Positions 29,957-39,039 of a DNA stretch of 39,039 nucleotides are shown here, one piece after another. Location: assembly GCA_945897335.1 (NCBI GenBank), contig CAMDFP010000009.1, positions 1 through 39,039 of the forward strand, given 5' to 3'. Position numbers and translations under genes: made by a program. Positions within the stretch are counted from its first letter, which is position 1, and each line of letters starts with the position of its first letter. The notes under the pieces were generated by a model. The model did no database searches. It worked only from the letters and a program-made list of their open reading frames with translations, and had not been told where the DNA came from. Source of the DNA: Asaia bogorensis. Lineage in GTDB: Bacteria; Pseudomonadota; Alphaproteobacteria; SHVZ01.

Positions 29957-30871
29957 ATGACGGAGGTCACGCATTTCACCCTCAAGGAAGGCGAGGACGC
30001 GGGCCCGTTGATGACGGGCGCGCGCCGCGCCATCGCCGGGGCGCCCGGCGATTCCATGCATTGGTACAATCTGTCGCTGTTCCAATGGGCGAGCGGGCTG
30101 CATCGCGATGCGGCGCGCGCCATGGCCCGGGCCGGAGCCGCCGGGTATGCCGCCGAAGCCCCCAGGCCGAAGCGCAGCGTCGTCATCCCGGTGCTCGACT
30201 ACTCGCCGAACTCGCCCTACGACATCGTCGGCCTGCTCGCCGACCTCGAAGGCTTCGAGGGCGAGGTCATCTGCATCTTCAACAGCGCCGAGGTCTTCGC
30301 CGACCTTCGCGAGCATCCGCGCATCGACAAGTTCAGCTACAACAAGCACAACGTCGGCGTCGCCCGTTCCTGGAACATCGGCCTGAACCAGGCCGAGGGC
30401 GACGTCGTGTTCGTGCTGAACGCCGATCTCAAGGTCTCGCTGGCGGCGCTCGACGAGCTCGAGCGATACCTGTTCACGCTGCCGAACGCGCTGGCGGTCG
30501 GGATGGCCGGCGAGATGTACGACATGCGCCGGCTCAAGATTCGCACCACCCACTACACGGGTACCTTCACGGCTCCGCTCGCCGTCGACAAGGTGAGCGG
30601 CTATGCCTTCGCGCTTCATGCCCAGCGGCTGCACGACGCCGGCATCTCGTTCGATCCCAGGCTCTCTCCGTTCTTCTGCGAGGAGTTCGATCTGCTCCTC
30701 AAAGCGCACGCCGCCGGGTTCGAGGTCTACGCCGCGCCGGTTCCCGGCATCGAGCACGTCCCCGGCATCTCCGCCGCCGACCGGCCGATCTACTGTTTCG
30801 GACGCAAGGCCGACCGCATGCGCGTGCTCATCCGCAACGCCAACCTCGTTCTCGATAGAGCTGAACGATGA
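29957..30871 (+). CDS. Family-2-like glycosyltransferase
   Basis: 304 residues from the ATG at 29957; an upstream in-frame ATG at 29900 would overlap the preceding gene by 35 bp. A short N-terminal helical part resembles a single TPR (MHWYNLSLFQWASGLHRDAARAMARAGAAGY). A GT-A domain follows: RSVVIPVLDYSPNSPYDIVGLLADLEGF, NKHNVGVARSWNIGLNQAEGDVVFVLNADLKV (NAD replacing the canonical DxD) and FDPRLSPFFCEEFDLLLKAHAAGFEVYA (acceptor-side ED motif). It transfers a sugar from a nucleotide donor, in the cytoplasm. Its 3' end overlaps the dehydratase gene by ATGA. Confidence 0.85.
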   Translation: MTEVTHFTLKEGEDAGPLMTGARRAIAGAPGDSMHWYNLSLFQWASGLHRDAARAMARAGAAGYAAEAPRPKRSVVIPVLDYSPNSPYDIVGLLADLEGFEGEVICIFNSAEVFADLREHPRIDKFSYNKHNVGVARSWNIGLNQAEGDVVFVLNADLKVSLAALDELERYLFTLPNALAVGMAGEMYDMRRLKIRTTHYTGTFTAPLAVDKVSGYAFALHAQRLHDAGISFDPRLSPFFCEEFDLLLKAHAAGFEVYAAPVPGIEHVPGISAADRPIYCFGRKADRMRVLIRNANLVLDRAER

Positions 30872-32079
30872 CGTCGTCCACTGGCAAGCCGGTCAGAGAC
30901 GCCCTGCTCGCCGGTATCCTCGGACGATCCCGTTCGTTCTTCGCCGACGACATGGCGACCGAGGCCGATCGTCTAAAGGGCGCCATCGCCGGCCGCCGGC
31001 TGCTCGTCGTCGGAGCGGCCGGCTCCATCGGCGCGGCCTTCGTCCGGCAGGTGGTCCGTTTCCGTCCGGCAGCCCTGCACCTCGTCGACGCCAACGAGAA
31101 CGCGCTGGTCGAACTGGTGCGCGATCTCCGGTCCTCGCCGATGGCGATGCCGGGAGACTTTCTCACCGCCAGCGTCGACTACGGGCGCCCGGAATTCGCC
31201 CGGTTCGCAATCGACCACGCGCCCTACGACGCTTTCGTCAACTTCGCGGCGATGAAGCATGTGCGGGCGGAACGTGACGTCTACAGCTTGCTCCGGATGA
31301 TCGACGTCAATGTCGAGAGCCTGAAGCGGTGCCTGGATCTCGCGCCGCGCCTCGGCTTCTCGCGCGTCTTCTCGGTCTCCACCGACAAATCGGTGCGTCC
31401 CGCCAATCTCATGGGGGCGACCAAGAACCTGATGGAGAAGTTGCTGTTCCAGGACGGCCTCGCCGCGACCGCGACCTCGGCCAGGTTCGCCAACGTGGCG
31501 TTCTCCGCCGGGAGCCTGCTGGAGGGATTCGAGTCGAGATTCGCCAAGGGCCAGCCCTTGTCGGCCCCGACCGACGTCCGGCGCTATTTCATCAGCGAGC
31601 GCGAAGCCGGCGAGCTCTGCCTGCTCGCCTGCTTCCTCGGCGAGACCCGGCAGGTTCTGTTCCCCAAACTGCAGCCGGCCCGGCATCTCCTCAGCCTCGC
31701 CGACATCGCGGTCCAGTTCCTCGCCCACCACGGCTACGAACCGCGCTTCTGCGCGAGCGAGCGCGAGGCGATCGATGCCGGAGGGCCGTCGGGCCGCCAG
31801 TGGCCCTGCTACTTCGCGCCGTCCGACACCACCGGAGAGAAGCCGGTCGAGGAGTTCCATCGGACGACGGACGTGATCGACGAGGATCGGTTTCGTGCCG
31901 CGGGGGTCGCCCGCGAGACGCCACCGGATCCGGGGGTCATCGAGACGTTCCTGGCGGAGATCGCACGGATCCGGGCCGGGTCCGGCTGGACGAAGGCTGC
32001 GGTCACCGTGGCGATCCGCGCCGCCGTACCCGAGCTCGTCCATAAGGAGCTCGGCCGCAACCTCGATCAGAAGATGTGA
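30868..32079 (+). CDS. FlaA1/PglF-type nucleotide-sugar 4,6-dehydratase (SDR)
   Basis: 403 residues. The NAD-binding site is RLLVVGAAGSIGAAFVRQVVRF (~residues 44-65). FVNFAAMKHVRAERD is the classic AA-KHV motif. FSVSTDKSVRPANLMGATKNLMEKL carries the T-D-K...M-x-x-x-K catalytic pattern of FlaA1/PglF dehydratases, with Met in the usual Tyr position. A C-terminal extension (~residues 300-403) is present. It likely makes a UDP- or GDP-4-keto-6-deoxy-N-acetylhexosamine, the step before the LegC-type aminotransferase that follows with overlapping codons. Confidence 0.88.
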   Translation: MTSSTGKPVRDALLAGILGRSRSFFADDMATEADRLKGAIAGRRLLVVGAAGSIGAAFVRQVVRFRPAALHLVDANENALVELVRDLRSSPMAMPGDFLTASVDYGRPEFARFAIDHAPYDAFVNFAAMKHVRAERDVYSLLRMIDVNVESLKRCLDLAPRLGFSRVFSVSTDKSVRPANLMGATKNLMEKLLFQDGLAATATSARFANVAFSAGSLLEGFESRFAKGQPLSAPTDVRRYFISEREAGELCLLACFLGETRQVLFPKLQPARHLLSLADIAVQFLAHHGYEPRFCASEREAIDAGGPSGRQWPCYFAPSDTTGEKPVEEFHRTTDVIDEDRFRAAGVARETPPDPGVIETFLAEIARIRAGSGWTKAAVTVAIRAAVPELVHKELGRNLDQKM

Positions 32080-32087
32080 GTCCTGAG

Positions 32088-33227
32088 ATGATTCCGCATG
32101 CACGGCCGGTGCTGACCGGGAACGAGGCGCGCTACCTCCAGGACTGCATCGAGACGACCTATGTCTCGTCGGTCGGCCCGTTCGTCGATCGTTTCGAGAG
32201 TCTGGTTGCGGCTGCCAGCCAGTCGACGGGTGCGGTGGCGACGGCATCCGGTACCTCGGCGCTCCACATCAGCCTGGTGGCCCTCGGCGTCGGGCGCGAC
32301 GACCTCGTCGTCCTTCCGAGCTTCACCTTCATCGCCAGCGCCAATGCCATCGCCCACTGCGGCGCGGAGCCCTGGCTGTTCGACGTGTCGCCGGAGAGCT
32401 GGACCCTGGATGCGGCCTTGCTGCGCCGGACGCTGGAGCGGGACACGCGGCGCGAGGCCGGGCGGCTGCTGCATGTGCCGAGCGGCCGGCGGGTCGCGGC
32501 GATCATGCCGATCCACACCCTCGGCGTACCGGCGGCGATGGACGAGATCGGGGCGATCGCGGCCGAGTTCGCGTTGCCCATCGTCGCCGACGCGGCGGCG
32601 GCGATCGGGGCCACCTACCGGGGTCGGCCGCTCGGCGGCTTCGGCGCGACCCTCTCGGCGATCTCGTTCAACGGCAACAAGACGATCACGGCCGGCGGCG
32701 GCGGCGCGGTTGTCAGCCAGGACCTGGAGCTGCTGCGTCTGGTCCGCCACCTCTCGACGACGGCGCGCGCCGGCGAGGAGTACGCGCATGACCGCGTCGG
32801 CTACAACTACCGCATGACCAATCTGCAGGCCGCGGTCGGCTGCGCGCAGATGGAGCGCTGGGAGGAGCTGGTCGAGGCGAAGCGGCGTATCCGCCGCCGC
32901 TACGACGCCGGCTTCCGGGGCGTGCCGGGCATCGCGCCGTTCCCGGATCCCGCCGGCCAGGAGAGCGCCTGCTGGCTTTCGGGCATCCGTGTGAGCCCGC
33001 CTGCGCCCTCCGTCGCGGCGCTACGCACCGGGCTCCGCGCCCAAGGCATCGAGACCCGTGCGTTCTGGCAGCCGATGCACCTGCAGGTGCCTTATCGGGC
33101 GGCGCCGGCGACGCCGATGCCGGTCAGCGATGCGCTGTGGCCGACGATCCTGACGCTGCCCTGCTCGACGGATCTCTCCGAGGCCGAGCAGGCGCGCGTC
33201 ATCGACGCGGTGAGGAGCGTCAGGTGA
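32088..33227 (+). CDS. LegC-type PLP-dependent sugar aminotransferase (DegT/DnrJ/EryC1 family)
   Basis: 379 residues. It adds an amino group at C4 of the keto-sugar made by the dehydratase. MIPHARPVLTGNEARYLQDCIETTYVSSVGPFV at the N-terminus is the LegC-type opening. SGTSALHISLVALG binds the cofactor phosphate, Asp168 (IVADAAAAIGA) faces the pyridine nitrogen, and Lys198 (SFNGNKTITAGGGG) is the Schiff-base lysine. GYNYRMTNLQAAVGCAQ is the family signature. An alternative GTG at 32076 overlaps the dehydratase stop; ATG was preferred because homologues begin MIP. Its stop is followed at once by the epimerase start. Confidence 0.92.
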   Translation: MIPHARPVLTGNEARYLQDCIETTYVSSVGPFVDRFESLVAAASQSTGAVATASGTSALHISLVALGVGRDDLVVLPSFTFIASANAIAHCGAEPWLFDVSPESWTLDAALLRRTLERDTRREAGRLLHVPSGRRVAAIMPIHTLGVPAAMDEIGAIAAEFALPIVADAAAAIGATYRGRPLGGFGATLSAISFNGNKTITAGGGGAVVSQDLELLRLVRHLSTTARAGEEYAHDRVGYNYRMTNLQAAVGCAQMERWEELVEAKRRIRRRYDAGFRGVPGIAPFPDPAGQESACWLSGIRVSPPAPSVAALRTGLRAQGIETRAFWQPMHLQVPYRAAPATPMPVSDALWPTILTLPCSTDLSEAEQARVIDAVRSVR

Positions 33228-34420
33228 TGCAGGCCGGCGTCGCAGAGGGACGGCGCCGGGTCTGTGTCTTGACCGGCAGTCGCGCGGAGTACGGCCTTCT
33301 CCGCTGGACAATGAGCGAGATCGCGGACGATCCGGCGCTTCAGCTCCAGGTCGCCGTCACCGGTGCTCATCTCGAGCCGAAGTTCGGGATGACCGCCGAG
33401 CGGATCGAAGCCGACGGCTTTGCGATCGACGCGCGCATCCCGATGCATCTCGATGAGAGTTCGCCGCTTTCGGTGTCGCGCTCGATGGCGGCGGGGCTGG
33501 CGGGGATCGCCGAGGCGCTGGATCGCCTCAGGCCCGACATCCTCGTCCTCCTCGGCGATCGCTTCGAGATCCATGCCGCGGCCACCGCGGCGATGGTCGC
33601 GCGCATCCCGATCGCGCACATCCATGGCGGCGAGGCGACGGAAGGTGCCATCGACGAGGCGATCCGTCATGCCGTCACCAAGATGGCGCATCTTCACTTC
33701 GTCTCCGCGCCAGCCTATCGCGACCGCGTCATCCAGCTCGGCGAGGCGCCCGACCGCGTCTTCGTCGTGGGGGCGGCCGGGCTGGACAATCTGGAGCGCA
33801 TCGAGCTTCCCGATCGCCCCGCGCTCGAACGCGAGCTCGGCGTCGAGCTCGGCGGCGGCTTCCTACTGGTCACCTATCATCCCGCGACGCTGGCCGCTGG
33901 CGATCCCGCCGGCGGTGTAGCGGAGCTCCTGGCGGCGCTGGACGAGTTTCCCGATCTGCGCGTCTTGATCACCGGGACCAATGCCGATCCGGGTGGCGAT
34001 CGCGTCCGCGACCTGATTTCGGGCTACGCGCGTGCGCAACCGGCGCGGGTCATGCTCCGCGAGTCGCTCGGGACCCGCCTGTATCTGGGTGCGATGCGGG
34101 CCGCGGCCGCGGTCGTCGGCAATTCCTCCAGCGGCATCATCGAGGCACCGGCGCTCGGCATCCCGACGGTGAACCTCGGCGACCGCCAGCGCGGCCGGCT
34201 ACGGGCGGCATCCATCATCGACTGTGCGGAGACCCGCATCGCGATCGCCGCGGCGATCGCAACGGCACTCGATCCGAAATTTCTCGGTGCGTTCGATCGA
34301 AGTGCAACCCCCTATGGCCGGCCGGGCGCGGCCAAGCGGATCCGGGACGTGTTGCGCGATGTCCGGCTCGACGGAATTCTGATGAAATCGTTCTACGACC
34401 TGCCGGCGGTCAGCCGCTGA
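33227..34420 (+). CDS. UDP-GlcNAc 2-epimerase (hydrolysing), NeuC/LegG-type
   Basis: 397 residues from an ATG in a TGATG stop-start overlap. It removes the nucleotide and inverts C2, giving a free N-acetylmannosamine-type sugar for a NeuB-like synthase. Motifs are VCVLTGSRAEYGLLRWTM, LVLLGDRFEIHAAATAAMVARIPIAHIHGGEATEGAIDEAIRHAVTKM (catalytic Asp, Glu and His positions kept), and VGNSSSGIIEAPALGIPTVNLGDRQRGR. It follows the dehydratase and aminotransferase genes, which points to a legionaminic-acid-like route rather than plain sialic acid. The 3' end overlaps the convergent radical SAM gene by 11 bp. Confidence 0.94.
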   Translation: MQAGVAEGRRRVCVLTGSRAEYGLLRWTMSEIADDPALQLQVAVTGAHLEPKFGMTAERIEADGFAIDARIPMHLDESSPLSVSRSMAAGLAGIAEALDRLRPDILVLLGDRFEIHAAATAAMVARIPIAHIHGGEATEGAIDEAIRHAVTKMAHLHFVSAPAYRDRVIQLGEAPDRVFVVGAAGLDNLERIELPDRPALERELGVELGGGFLLVTYHPATLAAGDPAGGVAELLAALDEFPDLRVLITGTNADPGGDRVRDLISGYARAQPARVMLRESLGTRLYLGAMRAAAAVVGNSSSGIIEAPALGIPTVNLGDRQRGRLRAASIIDCAETRIAIAAAIATALDPKFLGAFDRSATPYGRPGAAKRIRDVLRDVRLDGILMKSFYDLPAVSR

Positions 34421-35984
34421 CGACGGCCAGGGTCGGCGGAGTCGTCTCGGTATAGAGCGTCGACGGCCGCCCGGCGGGGATCCTGTGGTTGGCGCGCCAG
34501 ATCTGCTCGTACTCGTCGATGCGCTTCTTGTCCTTCATCAGCATCATCTCGCGCAGGCCGAGAAGCTCGACGGCATTGAAGTTCTGGCTGATGACGCCGG
34601 TGATCTTGGTCGCGTCGCCGAGGTCAAGAACGAACTTTTCGAGGTTGCCGCCATACTGGCGCTCGATCGACTCGCGATTGACGGTGAACCACTCGGAGCC
34701 CGGATAGGGCGTCGAGAAGAACGGCTTCACCACGATGCCGAGCTTGTCCCAGGCGGCCATGCTGTCCCGGATCGAGTCGAAGTCCTCGCTGGGGAAGCCG
34801 ATCATCTGGTTTGGGATCGGGCGGATCCCGGCATCCAGCGTCCAGAAGAAGCTGCGGATGTTGGTCTTGGGCGACGATCCCTTGCCGAGGCGCTTCAGGA
34901 CCTGGGACGAGAAGCTCTCGTAGCCGTAGACTAGGTGGGAGCAGCCGGCCGAACGCATCTCCTTGAGGATCTCGGGCGTGCAGAGTGTCGCGTGGCTGGT
35001 TCCCGACCAGTGGATGCCGGTCCAGCTCTCGCCGCGCTCCTTACCGTCGCCGAGGTAGGAGGGCTGCAGGCCGTTCTCCTTCCAGAGACGGCAGATGTCC
35101 CGCATCCAGGTCCTTCCGGAGTACTGGTCCATGGTCATCAGGTTCTCGTCGAGGAACCCGATGAAGTTGACCTTGAAGCGGTCATAGGCGTAGCGCGCCA
35201 GCTTCACCACGTATTCGGGGCTGTGATAGCGGATCGTCCGCGTATAGGCTCCCGGCTTGTCGAACTCGACATTGGCCTCGCCGTCCTCGCCCTCGACGTA
35301 GCGCATGTCGCCGGCGATGCCGAGGTGATAGCAGAAGCGGCAGATCAGCGAACAGCCGTAGCTGGCATTGATATCGAGGCGCCGCGTTGCCAGCATGCCT
35401 TCTTCCGAGAAGAGGACCTGGCTGTTGGGGAAATAGACTTCCTCGAGCGGGAACAGCTCCCAGGCCGGGTAGGGCAGGCTGTCGAGGTCGTGCAGCAGGC
35501 CGCGCGCCGGCGACATCACCAGCTTGCCGTCGGCGGTGCGCGAGATCGTGCCCTTGACCGTGGACCAGGCGCAGTCGCCCTGGTCGAGCCGGTCGAGGAG
35601 TTCGGGGAAGGTCTCGAAGGCCTCGCCGATGACGCCGATGTCGACTTCGGGCATCCACGTCATCATCTCGCGCGGCAGCGAGGTCAGCACGCCGCCGCCG
35701 AGCATGATCGTCGCCTTGGGGCAGACTTCGCGCGCGATCTGGACGATGCGCTTGATCGAGGCGTAGGCGGTGGTGATGCCACCGAGGGCGACCGTGTCCC
35801 AATCATCGGCCTGAAGAACGGCGCGGATCGTTTCTTCGCCACGGCGCCAGGCATTCTCGTCGTAGACCTGCACGAGATGGCCGCGCTTTATCGCGATGGC
35901 GGCCAGCAGCGCGATGCCGTAGGGCACGTGCCGCGGCACATCCTCTTCGCGGACCATCGGATTGATGAACAGGACCTTGGCCAA
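34410..35984 (-). CDS. Radical SAM protein with N-terminal B12-binding-like domain
   Basis: 524 residues. Residues ~1-130 have the layout of the cobalamin-binding-like domain of B12-type radical SAM proteins (FINPMVREEDVPRHVPYGIALLAAI, LGGITTAY, IMLGGGVLTSLPREMM), but no DxHxxG motif is seen, so cobalamin may not be bound. The 4Fe-4S site is Cys211, Cys215 and Cys218 (CSLICRFC). HLVYGYESFSSQVLKRLGKG and FPSEDFDSIRDSM are common in methylthiotransferase/BchE-like groups. It is the last gene of the nonulosonate minus operon, 21 bp after DUF115. It probably modifies a glycan, lipid or protein in that pathway; the reaction is unknown. Confidence 0.85.
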   Translation of the reverse strand: MAKVLFINPMVREEDVPRHVPYGIALLAAIAIKRGHLVQVYDENAWRRGEETIRAVLQADDWDTVALGGITTAYASIKRIVQIAREVCPKATIMLGGGVLTSLPREMMTWMPEVDIGVIGEAFETFPELLDRLDQGDCAWSTVKGTISRTADGKLVMSPARGLLHDLDSLPYPAWELFPLEEVYFPNSQVLFSEEGMLATRRLDINASYGCSLICRFCYHLGIAGDMRYVEGEDGEANVEFDKPGAYTRTIRYHSPEYVVKLARYAYDRFKVNFIGFLDENLMTMDQYSGRTWMRDICRLWKENGLQPSYLGDGKERGESWTGIHWSGTSHATLCTPEILKEMRSAGCSHLVYGYESFSSQVLKRLGKGSSPKTNIRSFFWTLDAGIRPIPNQMIGFPSEDFDSIRDSMAAWDKLGIVVKPFFSTPYPGSEWFTVNRESIERQYGGNLEKFVLDLGDATKITGVISQNFNAVELLGLREMMLMKDKKRIDEYEQIWRANHRIPAGRPSTLYTETTPPTLAVVSG

Positions 35985-36005: not shown

Positions 36006-37067
36006 CTAAGCGCGATCGGCGGCGAGAAAGCTCGCCAGCGGTGCGAAGCGGATGGACTCACCGAAGACGATCCCGCCTTCGGTGCAATTCACGGTCTCGC
36101 ACTCGGCATCCTTCGCCATGTCGAGCAGCGCCGTTCGGTACCACATATAAGCAGGATCCGTATAAAACCACTGATCCAGATGCGGATTATGGACCCAGAT
36201 GAACACGTCGTCGAGGTTGTCCTCCCCGACGAGGTCGACCGCCTCGCGATAGTACTGGGTGCGGGAATGCGGGGTGTCTGCGTAGTAGGAGAAGTCAAAT
36301 CCGACCAGGGCGACTGAGCTCTTGCCCAGGACCGCATGGGCGATCATCCAGGAAGCCGAGCCGACATTGCCGCCGGCGTTGATGCAGGGCATGCCATTCA
36401 TCTCGAAGACTCGCCGGGTGACGCTGCCCGGCAGGTCCGGGTCGTCGTGCATCGGGTTCCACCAGTAGATGTCCATGCCGAGGTCGATCGCCCGGCGGAC
36501 CACGGCTTCAGACGCCGAGGTGGAAAGCGCGATTCGGATGCCCTTGGCGTGGCGGGCCATCAGGTCCAGGGTCTCGCGGTTCGCCCGGAGCTCGTTGGTA
36601 TGCCGGGGATCCAGGTCCTGGCGCCGGAAGTAGTCGTCGCCGCCTGGGGCTTCCTGCACCAGGGTCGGATCGCCGAACCACCTGACAATGCGAGTCGGAT
36701 GGGGATCGACGGTGACCACGAGGTCCGGGACGACACCATTCTTCAGGCAATAGATCATCGCGCTGTCCGCGATGATCAGCGCCCCGTCATAGCCCGCACC
36801 CTTGATCTGGGTGATCGGGTCGCGTCGAGCGACGCTGGGGCCGTTCGCCAGGACGATTGCGCTGTCTCGGCGCCCGATGGGCGCATCACGAAGTTTGGCA
36901 ATCGATCGGCCGTGGTGAAGAACCGCCTGGTTGCGCTCGGCATTGGCGACGGCCATCGGGCCATGACGTTCCCAGGTGAGGGGGCCGAGCTCCGCGACCA
37001 GCGCCCGGCCGACGCCACCGGCCCCGGGAGCGGTCGGTCTGGTCGGCGGGCCGTCCGAGGATGTCAC
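36006..37067 (-). CDS. DUF115 / MptE-like protein (Maf-type flagellin glycosylation factor-like)
   Basis: 353 residues from a GTG that overlaps the small-protein stop (GTGA); the in-frame ATG at 37091 lies inside the small gene. SAIVLANGPSVARRDPI followed by GALIIADSAMIYCLKNGVVPDLVVTVDPHPTRI is the DUF115 hallmark. A second conserved part reads CINAGGNVGSASWMIAHAVLGKSSVALVGFDFSY. DUF115 is found in motility accessory factors (Maf) that attach nonulosonic acids to flagellin, and in archaeal MptE. Next to a CMP-sugar synthetase it is most likely a transferase for the cluster's sugar. Confidence 0.85.
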   Translation of the reverse strand: MTSSDGPPTRPTAPGAGGVGRALVAELGPLTWERHGPMAVANAERNQAVLHHGRSIAKLRDAPIGRRDSAIVLANGPSVARRDPITQIKGAGYDGALIIADSAMIYCLKNGVVPDLVVTVDPHPTRIVRWFGDPTLVQEAPGGDDYFRRQDLDPRHTNELRANRETLDLMARHAKGIRIALSTSASEAVVRRAIDLGMDIYWWNPMHDDPDLPGSVTRRVFEMNGMPCINAGGNVGSASWMIAHAVLGKSSVALVGFDFSYYADTPHSRTQYYREAVDLVGEDNLDDVFIWVHNPHLDQWFYTDPAYMWYRTALLDMAKDAECETVNCTEGGIVFGESIRFAPLASFLAADRA

Positions 37068-37240
37068 CCCTTGTCGTTCTTGAGGTCCCACATGACCTTC
37101 TTCTTCGAGACATAGGCGATGCTGCCGCCGAGCCGCTTCATCGCCTCACGCTCGAACCGGTCTTCGAGCGACTCCGGCTTGGCCGGAGCGTCGGTGACTT
37201 GGGTCTTGGTCTGGAAGTTCCCCTTGAGGAGCTCGTTCAT
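37064..37240 (-). CDS. Small 58-residue protein of unknown function in the nonulosonate operon
   Basis: An ATG at 37240 sits in a TAATG overlap with the CMP-sugar synthetase stop, and its TGA overlaps the DUF115 GTG. The product begins MNELLKGNFQTKTQV and ends KKKVMWDLKNDKG. It is strongly charged, with a central EDRFEREAMKRLGG helix, and has no signal or membrane segment. The exact coupling on both sides argues that it is a real gene. I do not recognise the family. It may be a DUF115 partner or acceptor adaptor. Confidence 0.7.
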   Translation of the reverse strand: MNELLKGNFQTKTQVTDAPAKPESLEDRFEREAMKRLGGSIAYVSKKKVMWDLKNDKG

Positions 37241-37956
37241 TAGCCGGGTTTCCCGCTGAAATTGGCGCTATTGCCGGTAAATATGGCGCTGATGAGCGCC
37301 ATGTCCAGGGCAGAGTCGACCTCGAGAGACCGTTCAGGCGGCATCACATAGGGGACGGTATCCCGGCCGACGAAGGTGAGGTTCCGGCGGTACCAGTCGA
37401 CACGTGCGACGTAAACGGCCCCGTTCGGCTGATAGACCGCCGGGAGTTCCTGGCGCCGGCGGGTCTGCCACTGGCTGTCCAGCACCGGTTCGAGCCGCCC
37501 GGTGCCTCCGATGGCGAAGGACCAGTAGACCGACTTCGGCGCCGGAACGACCGAGATACACGTCGTCGCCCCCGCCGAGTCGCATGCCTCGATGGCGCCA
37601 TCGATATCGGCGCCGATGCGCAGCGGGGAGGTCGCCTGCAGCGCCACCACATAGTCGAAGGGCTGGCCAAGCTGATCCAGGGCGTGGATCAGCGACTCGT
37701 GTACGGTCGCCTCGTCGCGCGCGAGCGCGGCCGGGCGCATGAACGGGACATCGCCGCCGGCAGCGCGGGCCGCCTCGGCGATGGCCGGATCGTCGGTCGA
37801 GACGATCGCCCGGTCGACGAGCCGGGACGTGCCGGCAGCGATTACTGACCAGGCGACCATCGGCTTGCCGCCGAGCGGGATCAGGTTCTTCCCCGGCAGG
37901 CCTTTGGACCCGCCGCGGGCCAAGACCACGGCAAGGATGCGGCGCCCGTTGATCAC
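37240..37956 (-). CDS. CMP-nonulosonate (acylneuraminate) cytidylyltransferase, NeuA/LegF/PseF-type
   Basis: 238 residues. It joins CTP and a nonulosonic acid to give the CMP-activated donor. LAVVLARGGSKGLPGKNLIPLGGKPMVAWS is the CTP-binding N-terminus. IVSTDDPAIAEAARAAGGDVPFMRPAALA, VALQATSPLR and AVYQPNGAVYVARV are all characteristic, and the Asp-rich VDSALDMALI ends the domain. It is the first gene of the minus operon, divergent from the TPR gene with a 113-bp gap. It completes the dehydratase-aminotransferase-2-epimerase set found on the other strand. Whether the sugar is legionaminic or a related acid cannot be read from this enzyme. Confidence 0.93.
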   Translation of the reverse strand: MINGRRILAVVLARGGSKGLPGKNLIPLGGKPMVAWSVIAAGTSRLVDRAIVSTDDPAIAEAARAAGGDVPFMRPAALARDEATVHESLIHALDQLGQPFDYVVALQATSPLRIGADIDGAIEACDSAGATTCISVVPAPKSVYWSFAIGGTGRLEPVLDSQWQTRRRQELPAVYQPNGAVYVARVDWYRRNLTFVGRDTVPYVMPPERSLEVDSALDMALISAIFTGNSANFSGKPG

Positions 37957-38069
37957 GTCTACTTTCTAGTCTCGAACGCCGTTCCGGCACAAGCCTGGGG
38001 CGGCGGCCGGCCGCCTTGCGCCGCCCTGCAAAACCCGCTAATCGTGCCCCGCCGCGACGGAAGCATTTG

Positions 38070-39039
38070 ATGGACAGGGCGCTGCAGGGGATCTTCGAGG
38101 CGGCGTTCAAGTGCCATCAGGCCGGACGGCTCGCGGAGGCCGAAGAGCACTACCGCACGCTCCTCCGCCAGGCTCCGCACAATGCCGACGCGCTCCACCT
38201 TCTCGGTCTGCTGCGCTATCAGCAGGGACATGCTGCCGAAGCCGAAGGTCTGGTCGCCCAGGCGTTGAAAGTACGGCCGGATGCCGTCTATTACGAAAAC
38301 TTGGCGACGATCCAGGGGTCTCGCGGCGCTCTCGCGGCCGTCATCGAAACCTGCCGCGCCGGACTCGGGCATTTGTCGTCTGCGCGCCTGGGGTCGTTGC
38401 TGCTCGATGCGCTTATCCAGGTCGGCGACTTTCACCAGGCTTTGGACCTGCTTGACCGGCTGAGGCAGACCGAGCCGGCGTCCGCTGAGCGGCTGGCCGA
38501 CCGCGCTCTCTGCCTCTTCCGGATTGGGCGGCCGGCAGACGCGGAGACCGCGGCGGAGCAGGCCCTTGCGATCGATCCCAGCAGTGGAAATGCGGTCTCC
38601 GTCCTCGCCGATCTCGCATCGGCCCGTGGCGATCATCGCCGGGCGGTCGCGCTCTGGCGTCAGGCGGTGTCGGGATGGCCGGACTGGCTCGCGGCACGGA
38701 TCAATCTCGGCGTGTCCTACCTCAGGCTCGGCGATGCGCAAGCCGCCTTCGACTCGCTTTCGTCGATGCCGATCCCCGAGGATGCCGGTCAGGCCGCATC
38801 GCTGCTCAACGGTCGTGCCGCGGCCTTCCGGAAGCTCGGGAAGGTGGAGTCGGCTCGCCGGTGCCTGCAAGCGGCCTTGGCATTGTCGCCCGGCTCGGCC
38901 GAATATTCGGCCAACCTGTCGGAGCTATGGCGAGTGTTGGATGCGGCCTATGCGCTGCGCGTCGCCGGCTGGTCCATCGCCTCAGATCCGCACGGAGCGG
39001 GCGGGCATACCAACTACGGCCTCGCTCTGGAGGAGGTCG
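38070..39039 (+). CDS. Tetratricopeptide-repeat protein, 3' end outside window
   Basis: Open frame of 323 codons from the ATG at 38070 (GGAAG upstream) to the edge, with no stop. The translation is a run of TPR units: IFEAAFKCHQAGRLAEAEEHYRTLLRQAPHNADALHLLGLL, RYQQGHAAEAEGLVAQALKVRPD, LIQVGDFHQALDLLDRLRQTEP, RIGRPADAETAAEQALAIDPSSG, ARGDHRRAVALWRQAV, and RKLGKVESARRCLQAALALSPGSAEYSANLSELW. In this neighbourhood such N-terminal TPR arrays often precede glycosyltransferase or sulfotransferase domains. That is inference, as the C-terminus is missing. Confidence 0.85.
   Translation, partial: MDRALQGIFEAAFKCHQAGRLAEAEEHYRTLLRQAPHNADALHLLGLLRYQQGHAAEAEGLVAQALKVRPDAVYYENLATIQGSRGALAAVIETCRAGLGHLSSARLGSLLLDALIQVGDFHQALDLLDRLRQTEPASAERLADRALCLFRIGRPADAETAAEQALAIDPSSGNAVSVLADLASARGDHRRAVALWRQAVSGWPDWLAARINLGVSYLRLGDAQAAFDSLSSMPIPEDAGQAASLLNGRAAAFRKLGKVESARRCLQAALALSPGSAEYSANLSELWRVLDAAYALRVAGWSIASDPHGAGGHTNYGLALEEV

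Follow-up and report, generated by a model that had tools for sequence, protein, structure and literature searches.

Maf-type transferases decorate bacterial flagellins with sugars that resemble sialic acid. In Maf, the N-terminal domain is Rossmann-like, and the C-terminal one is helical and weakly similar to flagellin chaperones (PMC11339370). How such cytoplasmic glycosylation systems choose their acceptors is described as poorly understood in the accessible text of the paper on FlmG, a text in which the terms 'small protein' and 'accessory' do not occur (PMC7591256). Against this background, we analysed a stretch of 39,039 nucleotides from Asaia bogorensis (contig CAMDFP010000009.1 of assembly GCA_945897335.1; hereafter the window), which holds a gene for a minimal Maf-like protein of the DUF115 family together with a very small gene upstream and a B12-radical-SAM gene downstream (Table 1). 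A first-pass annotation had located the small gene within a nonulosonate operon. This does not hold as described: the NeuC, LegC-like, dehydratase and GT2 genes are carried by the other strand and point towards the end of the radical-SAM gene, and the same-strand run consists of the synthetase, the small gene, DUF115 and the B12-radical-SAM gene.

Table 1. Features of the window discussed in the text, with their coordinates and the evidence for each.
Feature	Position	Strand	Evidence
Nucleotide-sugar dehydratase-like protein	30868..32079	plus	PF02719, E 3e-35
LegC-like aminotransferase	32076..33227	plus	TIGR04181, 387.4 bits, below 420 cut-off
NeuC-type UDP-GlcNAc 2-epimerase (putative start)	33224..34420	plus	TIGR03568, 431.5 bits over 235.9 cut-off
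B12-binding radical SAM protein, 524 aa, third constant module member	34410..35984	minus	PF02310, PF04055
DUF115 / MptE-like protein, 353 aa, Maf-like catalytic core	36006..37067	minus	PF01973; predicted model; 5mu5 fold match
GTGA junction: DUF115 GTG start overlaps small-gene TGA stop	37064..37067	minus	
Small protein gene, 58 aa (MNELLKGNF...LGGSIAYVSKKKVMWDLKNDKG)	37064..37240	minus	sequence; 31-locus comparison; coding selection
TAATG junction: synthetase stop TAA shares its last A with small-gene ATG	37238..37242	minus	
CMP-sugar (nonulosonate-type) synthetase, 238 aa, usual neighbour	37240..37956	minus	PF02348

The 58-residue open reading frame that the first-pass annotation had proposed, without naming its strand, is indeed present on the minus strand, where 58 codons and a TGA stop are read from 37240 down to 37064. 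Likewise, the TAATG and GTGA overlaps said to fix it between the CMP-sugar synthetase and DUF115 genes are both found in the sequence, the small gene sharing one base with the former and four with the latter in the window. The first-pass annotation had placed the gene below common gene-calling limits; with 177 nt it is short, yet probably not under the default of the usual gene callers. We compared it across 31 loci including the window (among them eight extra sequences reached via DUF115, with L054 excluded), which encode 30 distinct proteins, those of L036 and L037 being identical. The annotation had left room for a frame that is not conserved or not under coding selection, and in neither respect did the gene fail. 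The frame is kept in all 31 loci, every copy starts with ATG, and nine residues (G7, N8, F29, E30, L37, G38, G39, S40 and V44) are identical in all 31. NG86 dN/dS ranges from 0.00 to 0.25 in nine of ten chosen pairs, dS being saturated in the tenth, and the variability by codon position is 0.25/0.19/0.38, highest at third positions. Furthermore, the invariant Ser40 is encoded by both codon classes, AGC/AGT in 11 and TCN in 12 of the 23 copies examined, and a Shine-Dalgarno-like word precedes the gene in 29 of the 31 loci, the exceptions being the window and L053. As judged from these comparisons, the frame is under protein-level selection and the gene is real. A chance open frame between two genes, for which the small size is the one point in favour, is refuted by the coding selection, by the loci reached blindly via DUF115 (see below) and by the conservation across 31 loci; with homologues in 30 other loci, nine invariant residues and ribosome-site-like words upstream, we regard its probability as negligible.

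The junctions vary by locus, being TAATG in the window and ATGA in L002, with gaps elsewhere; overlap with the neighbours is hence no explanation for the conservation of the small gene. The same observation bears on the idea that the ORF serves regulation as a leader peptide, or couples translation, and that its product is irrelevant. Although the ORF is short, lies immediately upstream and overlaps both neighbours in the window, its protein sequence is strongly conserved together with synonymous change, whereas spacing and overlaps are not conserved, and we consider this explanation highly improbable. At the protein level, two conserved blocks, LKGNF (residues 5–9) and LE.RFE..A.K.LGGSIAFV.KKK..W (residues 25–51), flank a variable linker, and LGGS is the most constant block of the protein in the 31 loci. 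Of the two search motifs suggested earlier, MNELLKGNF is well kept across the compared loci in its LKGNF part, and KKKVMWDLK is near-invariant in its three lysines and its tryptophan (29–30 of 31), while its other positions vary.

The compared loci are labelled mostly Alphaproteobacteria, with additional MAGs labelled Gammaproteobacteria, Myxococcales and Anaerolineales. The small gene was found in 3 of 7 genomes of the family, the order-level search covering these seven again, and, at E ≤ 2e-14, in 6 of 385 genomes of the class. An alignment-derived scan of genome contigs returned 103 pattern stretches, 23 of them loci encoding a relative; going by their record titles, these include Paramagnetospirillum caucaseum, Rhodospirillaceae LM-1, Kordiimonadales bacterium IMCC3096 and MAGs labelled Gammaproteobacteria (three), Anaerolineales (one, with its copy on a 1.4-Mb contig) and Myxococcales (one). 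Viral contigs yielded 49 pattern stretches, none of them a relative, and a tblastn search of plasmids with the small protein gave no match. Beyond the own genome, four matches at E 8e-4 to 3e-3 in a phylum-wide sample of 398 genomes, all partial and one with an internal stop, were taken as chance. In the class sample, 54 of 385 genomes matched at E ≤ 1; the 48 beyond the six start at E 0.0097, several hold internal stops, and they were dropped as chance, a judgement made on the matches themselves. The gene-order count does not include L054, where the contig breaks off within the small gene; L037 belongs to that assembly too and has a contig starting just before the gene, so the two may be one gene split by assembly.

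In all 22 loci that were found through the small gene and have downstream DNA, the small gene is followed by DUF115 and then by the B12-radical-SAM gene on one strand. Since these loci had been found through the small gene, the reverse test was run, starting from a DUF115 profile. In four other genome groups this profile gave 4/192, 1/199, 11/199 and 1/185 matches, all at E ≤ 1e-155, and no further match was reported there at E ≤ 1e-15. The same order on one strand recurs in 17 of the 17 loci reached blindly in this way, where the small gene (profile E ≤ 2.6e-23) precedes DUF115 and the radical-SAM gene comes after it; nine of them repeat known small proteins (that of L083 being that of L051), eight are new, and the two sets of loci overlap. 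In L051 (4922–6892) and L083, which share one small protein, a CMP-sugar synthetase stands between the small gene and DUF115 and is the sole interposed gene detected by BLAST with seven queries. The radical-SAM partner, left unnamed in the first-pass annotation, is as constant as DUF115 in both locus sets. At E ≤ 1e-60 the radical-SAM protein occurs in 6 of the 385 class genomes, exactly the six with the small gene, DUF115 occurs in the same three of the seven family genomes as the small gene, and there is no lone small-gene copy among the loci with readable flanks. The module is patchy yet all-or-none in the genomes searched, like a unit that moves as a block, and its constant neighbourhood in distant bacteria, wherever flanks are readable, suggests that the three proteins work together.

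The DUF115 protein matches PF01973 with E 5.6e-12 (46.2 bits over a cut-off of 34.6), and its counterparts in L045 (Paramagnetospirillum caucaseum) and L053 score 53.0 and 54.4 bits. In its predicted structure (pLDDT 87.4), the best fold match is the Maf core 5mu5, with Z 21.4, an rmsd of 3.5 and 14% identity over 250 aligned residues; residues 29–353 of the model align to 238–515 of the 5mu5 chain. The next fold matches are MptE (Z 15.1), SteA (Z 11.0) and sialyltransferases (Z 9.0 and below). In the sequence-profile search the ranking is reversed, MptE being found at E 2.3e-7 and 5mu5 at E 0.26. A BFVD search with the model returned 13 matches at E ≤ 0.001 with query TM-scores of 0.37–0.57, of which six bear the name MptE-like. 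The small protein had been presented as a possible conserved partner of a Maf-like transferase. It is conserved, uncharacterised and accompanied by DUF115 in all 17 blind loci, and the Maf-likeness of DUF115 stands as far as the fold is concerned, while by sequence profile it is weak. The three-domain Maf architecture is absent. Given the match to the core alone and the length of 353 aa, we describe DUF115 as resembling the Maf core and do not file it as a full Maf.

This resemblance also speaks for a reading in which the small protein is a flagellin-related factor, be it a chaperone or a specificity factor, and brings flagellin to the Maf-like transferase. Maf1 acts on flagellin within the cytoplasm (PMC4065374), and flagellin genes were found in 13 of the 15 genome handles searched. 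The search went by genome handle, and since G746 (the genome of L036) and G201 show identical flagellin matches and are evidently one genome, the 15 handles correspond to fewer distinct genomes. On the other side, flagellin genes are common in such bacteria anyway, and neither the 9.4-Mb Anaerolineales genome G752 nor the 77%-complete G002, both of which have the module, gave a flagellin match. We hold a role as flagellin factor to be distinctly improbable.

The radical-SAM protein scores above the cut-offs of both its Pfam families and carries CxxxCxxC in 23 of 23 members, and its NCBIfam matches, among the 18 listed, all fall below their own cut-offs. The string D-x-H-x-x-G, tried as a B12 marker, is present in 2 of 23 radical-SAM proteins, and nothing was concluded from it. 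A CMP-sugar synthetase was detected by BLAST in 18 of 22 loci and is hence not constant, and a NeuC homologue is found in 11 of 22. In the window, the synthetase reaches 139.9 bits against the PseF model, below its cut-off of 205.7. The NeuC gene (plus strand) and the radical-SAM gene (minus strand) overlap tail to tail by 11 bases (34410–34420). A TPR-repeat gene (38016–39038) adjoins the synthetase and runs off the contig end, the contig being, by its coordinates, identical with the window, and large TPR genes (702 and 714 aa) lie beside the module in L032 and L033.

Ten proteins were scanned, and among them NeuB and His_biosynth (L053), a GATase (L048) and a CBS-nucleotidyltransferase (L041) have their genes close to the module. 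The His_biosynth (HisF-like) protein occurs in 12 of 24 sources (L053:13446–16285 and relatives), often accompanied by an FCKxxVISNQRP-like protein that has no Pfam match, and this recurrence may hint at an amidated (acetamidino-type) sugar. In L048 (12839–14970), a second, distantly related B12-radical-SAM gene, whose product is 25.8% identical to that of the window, and then a second CMP-sugar synthetase gene lie immediately downstream of the module. L046 carries the module, and no nonulosonate gene was found in its 19.6 kb, of which four neighbours were scanned, so that the link to the sugar is not shown to be universal. On the other strand of L046 (13814–16463), close to the module, lie genes for an ABC transporter ATPase and a PF01497 periplasmic binding protein; cobalamin uptake would be a guess, and their presence may be chance.

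No family in Pfam, NCBIfam or PHROGs recognised the small protein: across 23 members, the best E-values of 0.077, 0.031 and 0.051, respectively, are not significant. A seven-sequence profile had no match among PDB sequences at E ≤ 10, and there is no signal- or membrane-helix-like hydrophobic stretch (best 15-residue hydropathy mean 0.27). The AlphaFold2 model is weak (pLDDT 69.6, pTM 0.34), showing coil followed by helices 25–37 and 39–56, and thus no interface can be named from it. Correlating distance matrices gave a Spearman coefficient of 0.25 between the small protein and DUF115 (reached by 30 of 2000 permutations), 0.42 between the small protein and the radical-SAM enzyme (reached by 2 of 2000) and 0.54 between DUF115 and the radical-SAM enzyme, in a comparison that is too noisy for naming the main partner. 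As the correlation is low with DUF115 and higher with the radical-SAM enzyme, DUF115 may not be the main partner of the small protein. In the open-access literature, no paper recognisably about a small DUF115 partner alongside a radical-SAM enzyme appeared among the matches listed, and databases may well contain the protein already, recorded as hypothetical and without a name.

The strongest rival reading takes the small protein as a substrate, that is, as a dedicated acceptor or precursor peptide that is glycosylated by DUF115 and/or methylated by the B12-radical-SAM enzyme, on the model of ribosomally synthesised, modified peptides or of a protein that carries sugars. Ser40 in LGGSIAFV, invariant while its codon class switches, would then be a candidate site for DUF115. 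In every readable locus the radical-SAM gene is the second gene after the small one, or the third in L051 and L083, and the most conserved block lies towards the C-terminus with a variable tail beyond it, both of which fit a substrate. However, the invariant residues are spread across both blocks rather than forming a single core. The Pfam and NCBIfam searches, in libraries that hold described families only, gave no significant match to a known precursor family, and no peptidase or dedicated exporter was recognised in the few scanned of 36 families that recur in at least five loci, many of which are shadow frames. A double-glycine leader for LGG/S was considered and set aside on the consensus alone, the double glycine having, as we take it, no recognisable leader context. 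Altogether, we judge a substrate role to be rather unlikely. Its most specific form, a peptide carrier loaded with nonulosonate on Ser40 by the minimal Maf-like transferase and modified by the B12-radical-SAM enzyme, we deem unlikely; if true, it would amount to a peptide-borne sugar system across at least three labelled phyla for which the searched family libraries have no model.

The constant gene order and the lack of any lone copy among loci with readable flanks lead us to favour, with somewhat better than even confidence, a small protein that serves as a cytosolic subunit or adaptor of a minimal-Maf and B12-radical-SAM module for nonulosonate-type sugars. In this three-protein module, a small, soluble and probably cytosolic accessory protein would act with the minimal Maf-like DUF115 transferase and the B12-radical-SAM enzyme. 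Its two conserved blocks with a variable linker make docking onto DUF115 most likely, and it may bridge DUF115 and the radical-SAM enzyme with one block for each. It may take over the binding of acceptors or partners from the outer domains of full-length Maf, which are missing in DUF115. The proposed task of the module is to modify a nonulosonate, in its CMP-activated form or as a glycoconjugate, perhaps through methylation by the radical-SAM enzyme, and to transfer it to a cell-surface acceptor. A minimal Maf core that is here always found with a small protein and a B12-radical-SAM enzyme offers a compact, testable system, in which the small protein would be a specificity subunit split off from the transferase or else a modified peptide of a novel type. 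Moreover, the small protein represents a conserved family that is not covered by the libraries searched, and a defined radical-SAM family gains a likely pathway.

Compared with known systems, DUF115 shares its Pfam family name and the profile and fold matches given above (E 2.3e-7, Z 15.1) with MptE, the archaeal 6-hydroxymethylpterin diphosphokinase (8sd5), whereas the DUF115 neighbourhoods examined here are those of nucleotide-sugar chemistry. Sialyltransferases use CMP-sugar donors, and the DUF115 model matches the folds of ST8SiaIII and CstII with Z 9.0 and 7.2, a level rated common by the tool; neither was found in the PDB sequence-profile search with DUF115 at E ≤ 1. What the module shares with the RiPP radical-SAM systems is that a short, conserved peptide gene lies near one for a B12-radical-SAM enzyme. 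It differs from them by its Maf-like transferase and, often, a CMP-sugar synthetase, and no maturation peptidase or exporter was recognised in the few families scanned. FlmG, the Caulobacter flagellin glycosyltransferase, has TPRs; a TPR-repeat gene adjoins the synthetase in the window and in L032, and the TPR genes beside the module might have an FlmG-like role. FlmG itself is a single modular protein with its own N-terminal flagellin-binding domain (PMC7591256).

The Maf flagellin glycosyltransferase 5mu5 of Magnetospirillum magneticum AMB-1 has the DUF115/PF01973 catalytic core and the nonulosonate setting in common with our locus. Its chain comprises 666 residues, against 353 in DUF115, where the outer domains are absent, and DUF115 comes here with two further genes, one for the small protein and one for the B12-radical-SAM enzyme. 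On the sequence data, the module would represent a Maf-like sugar-transfer system that includes a radical-SAM partner and whose small, conserved component is new.
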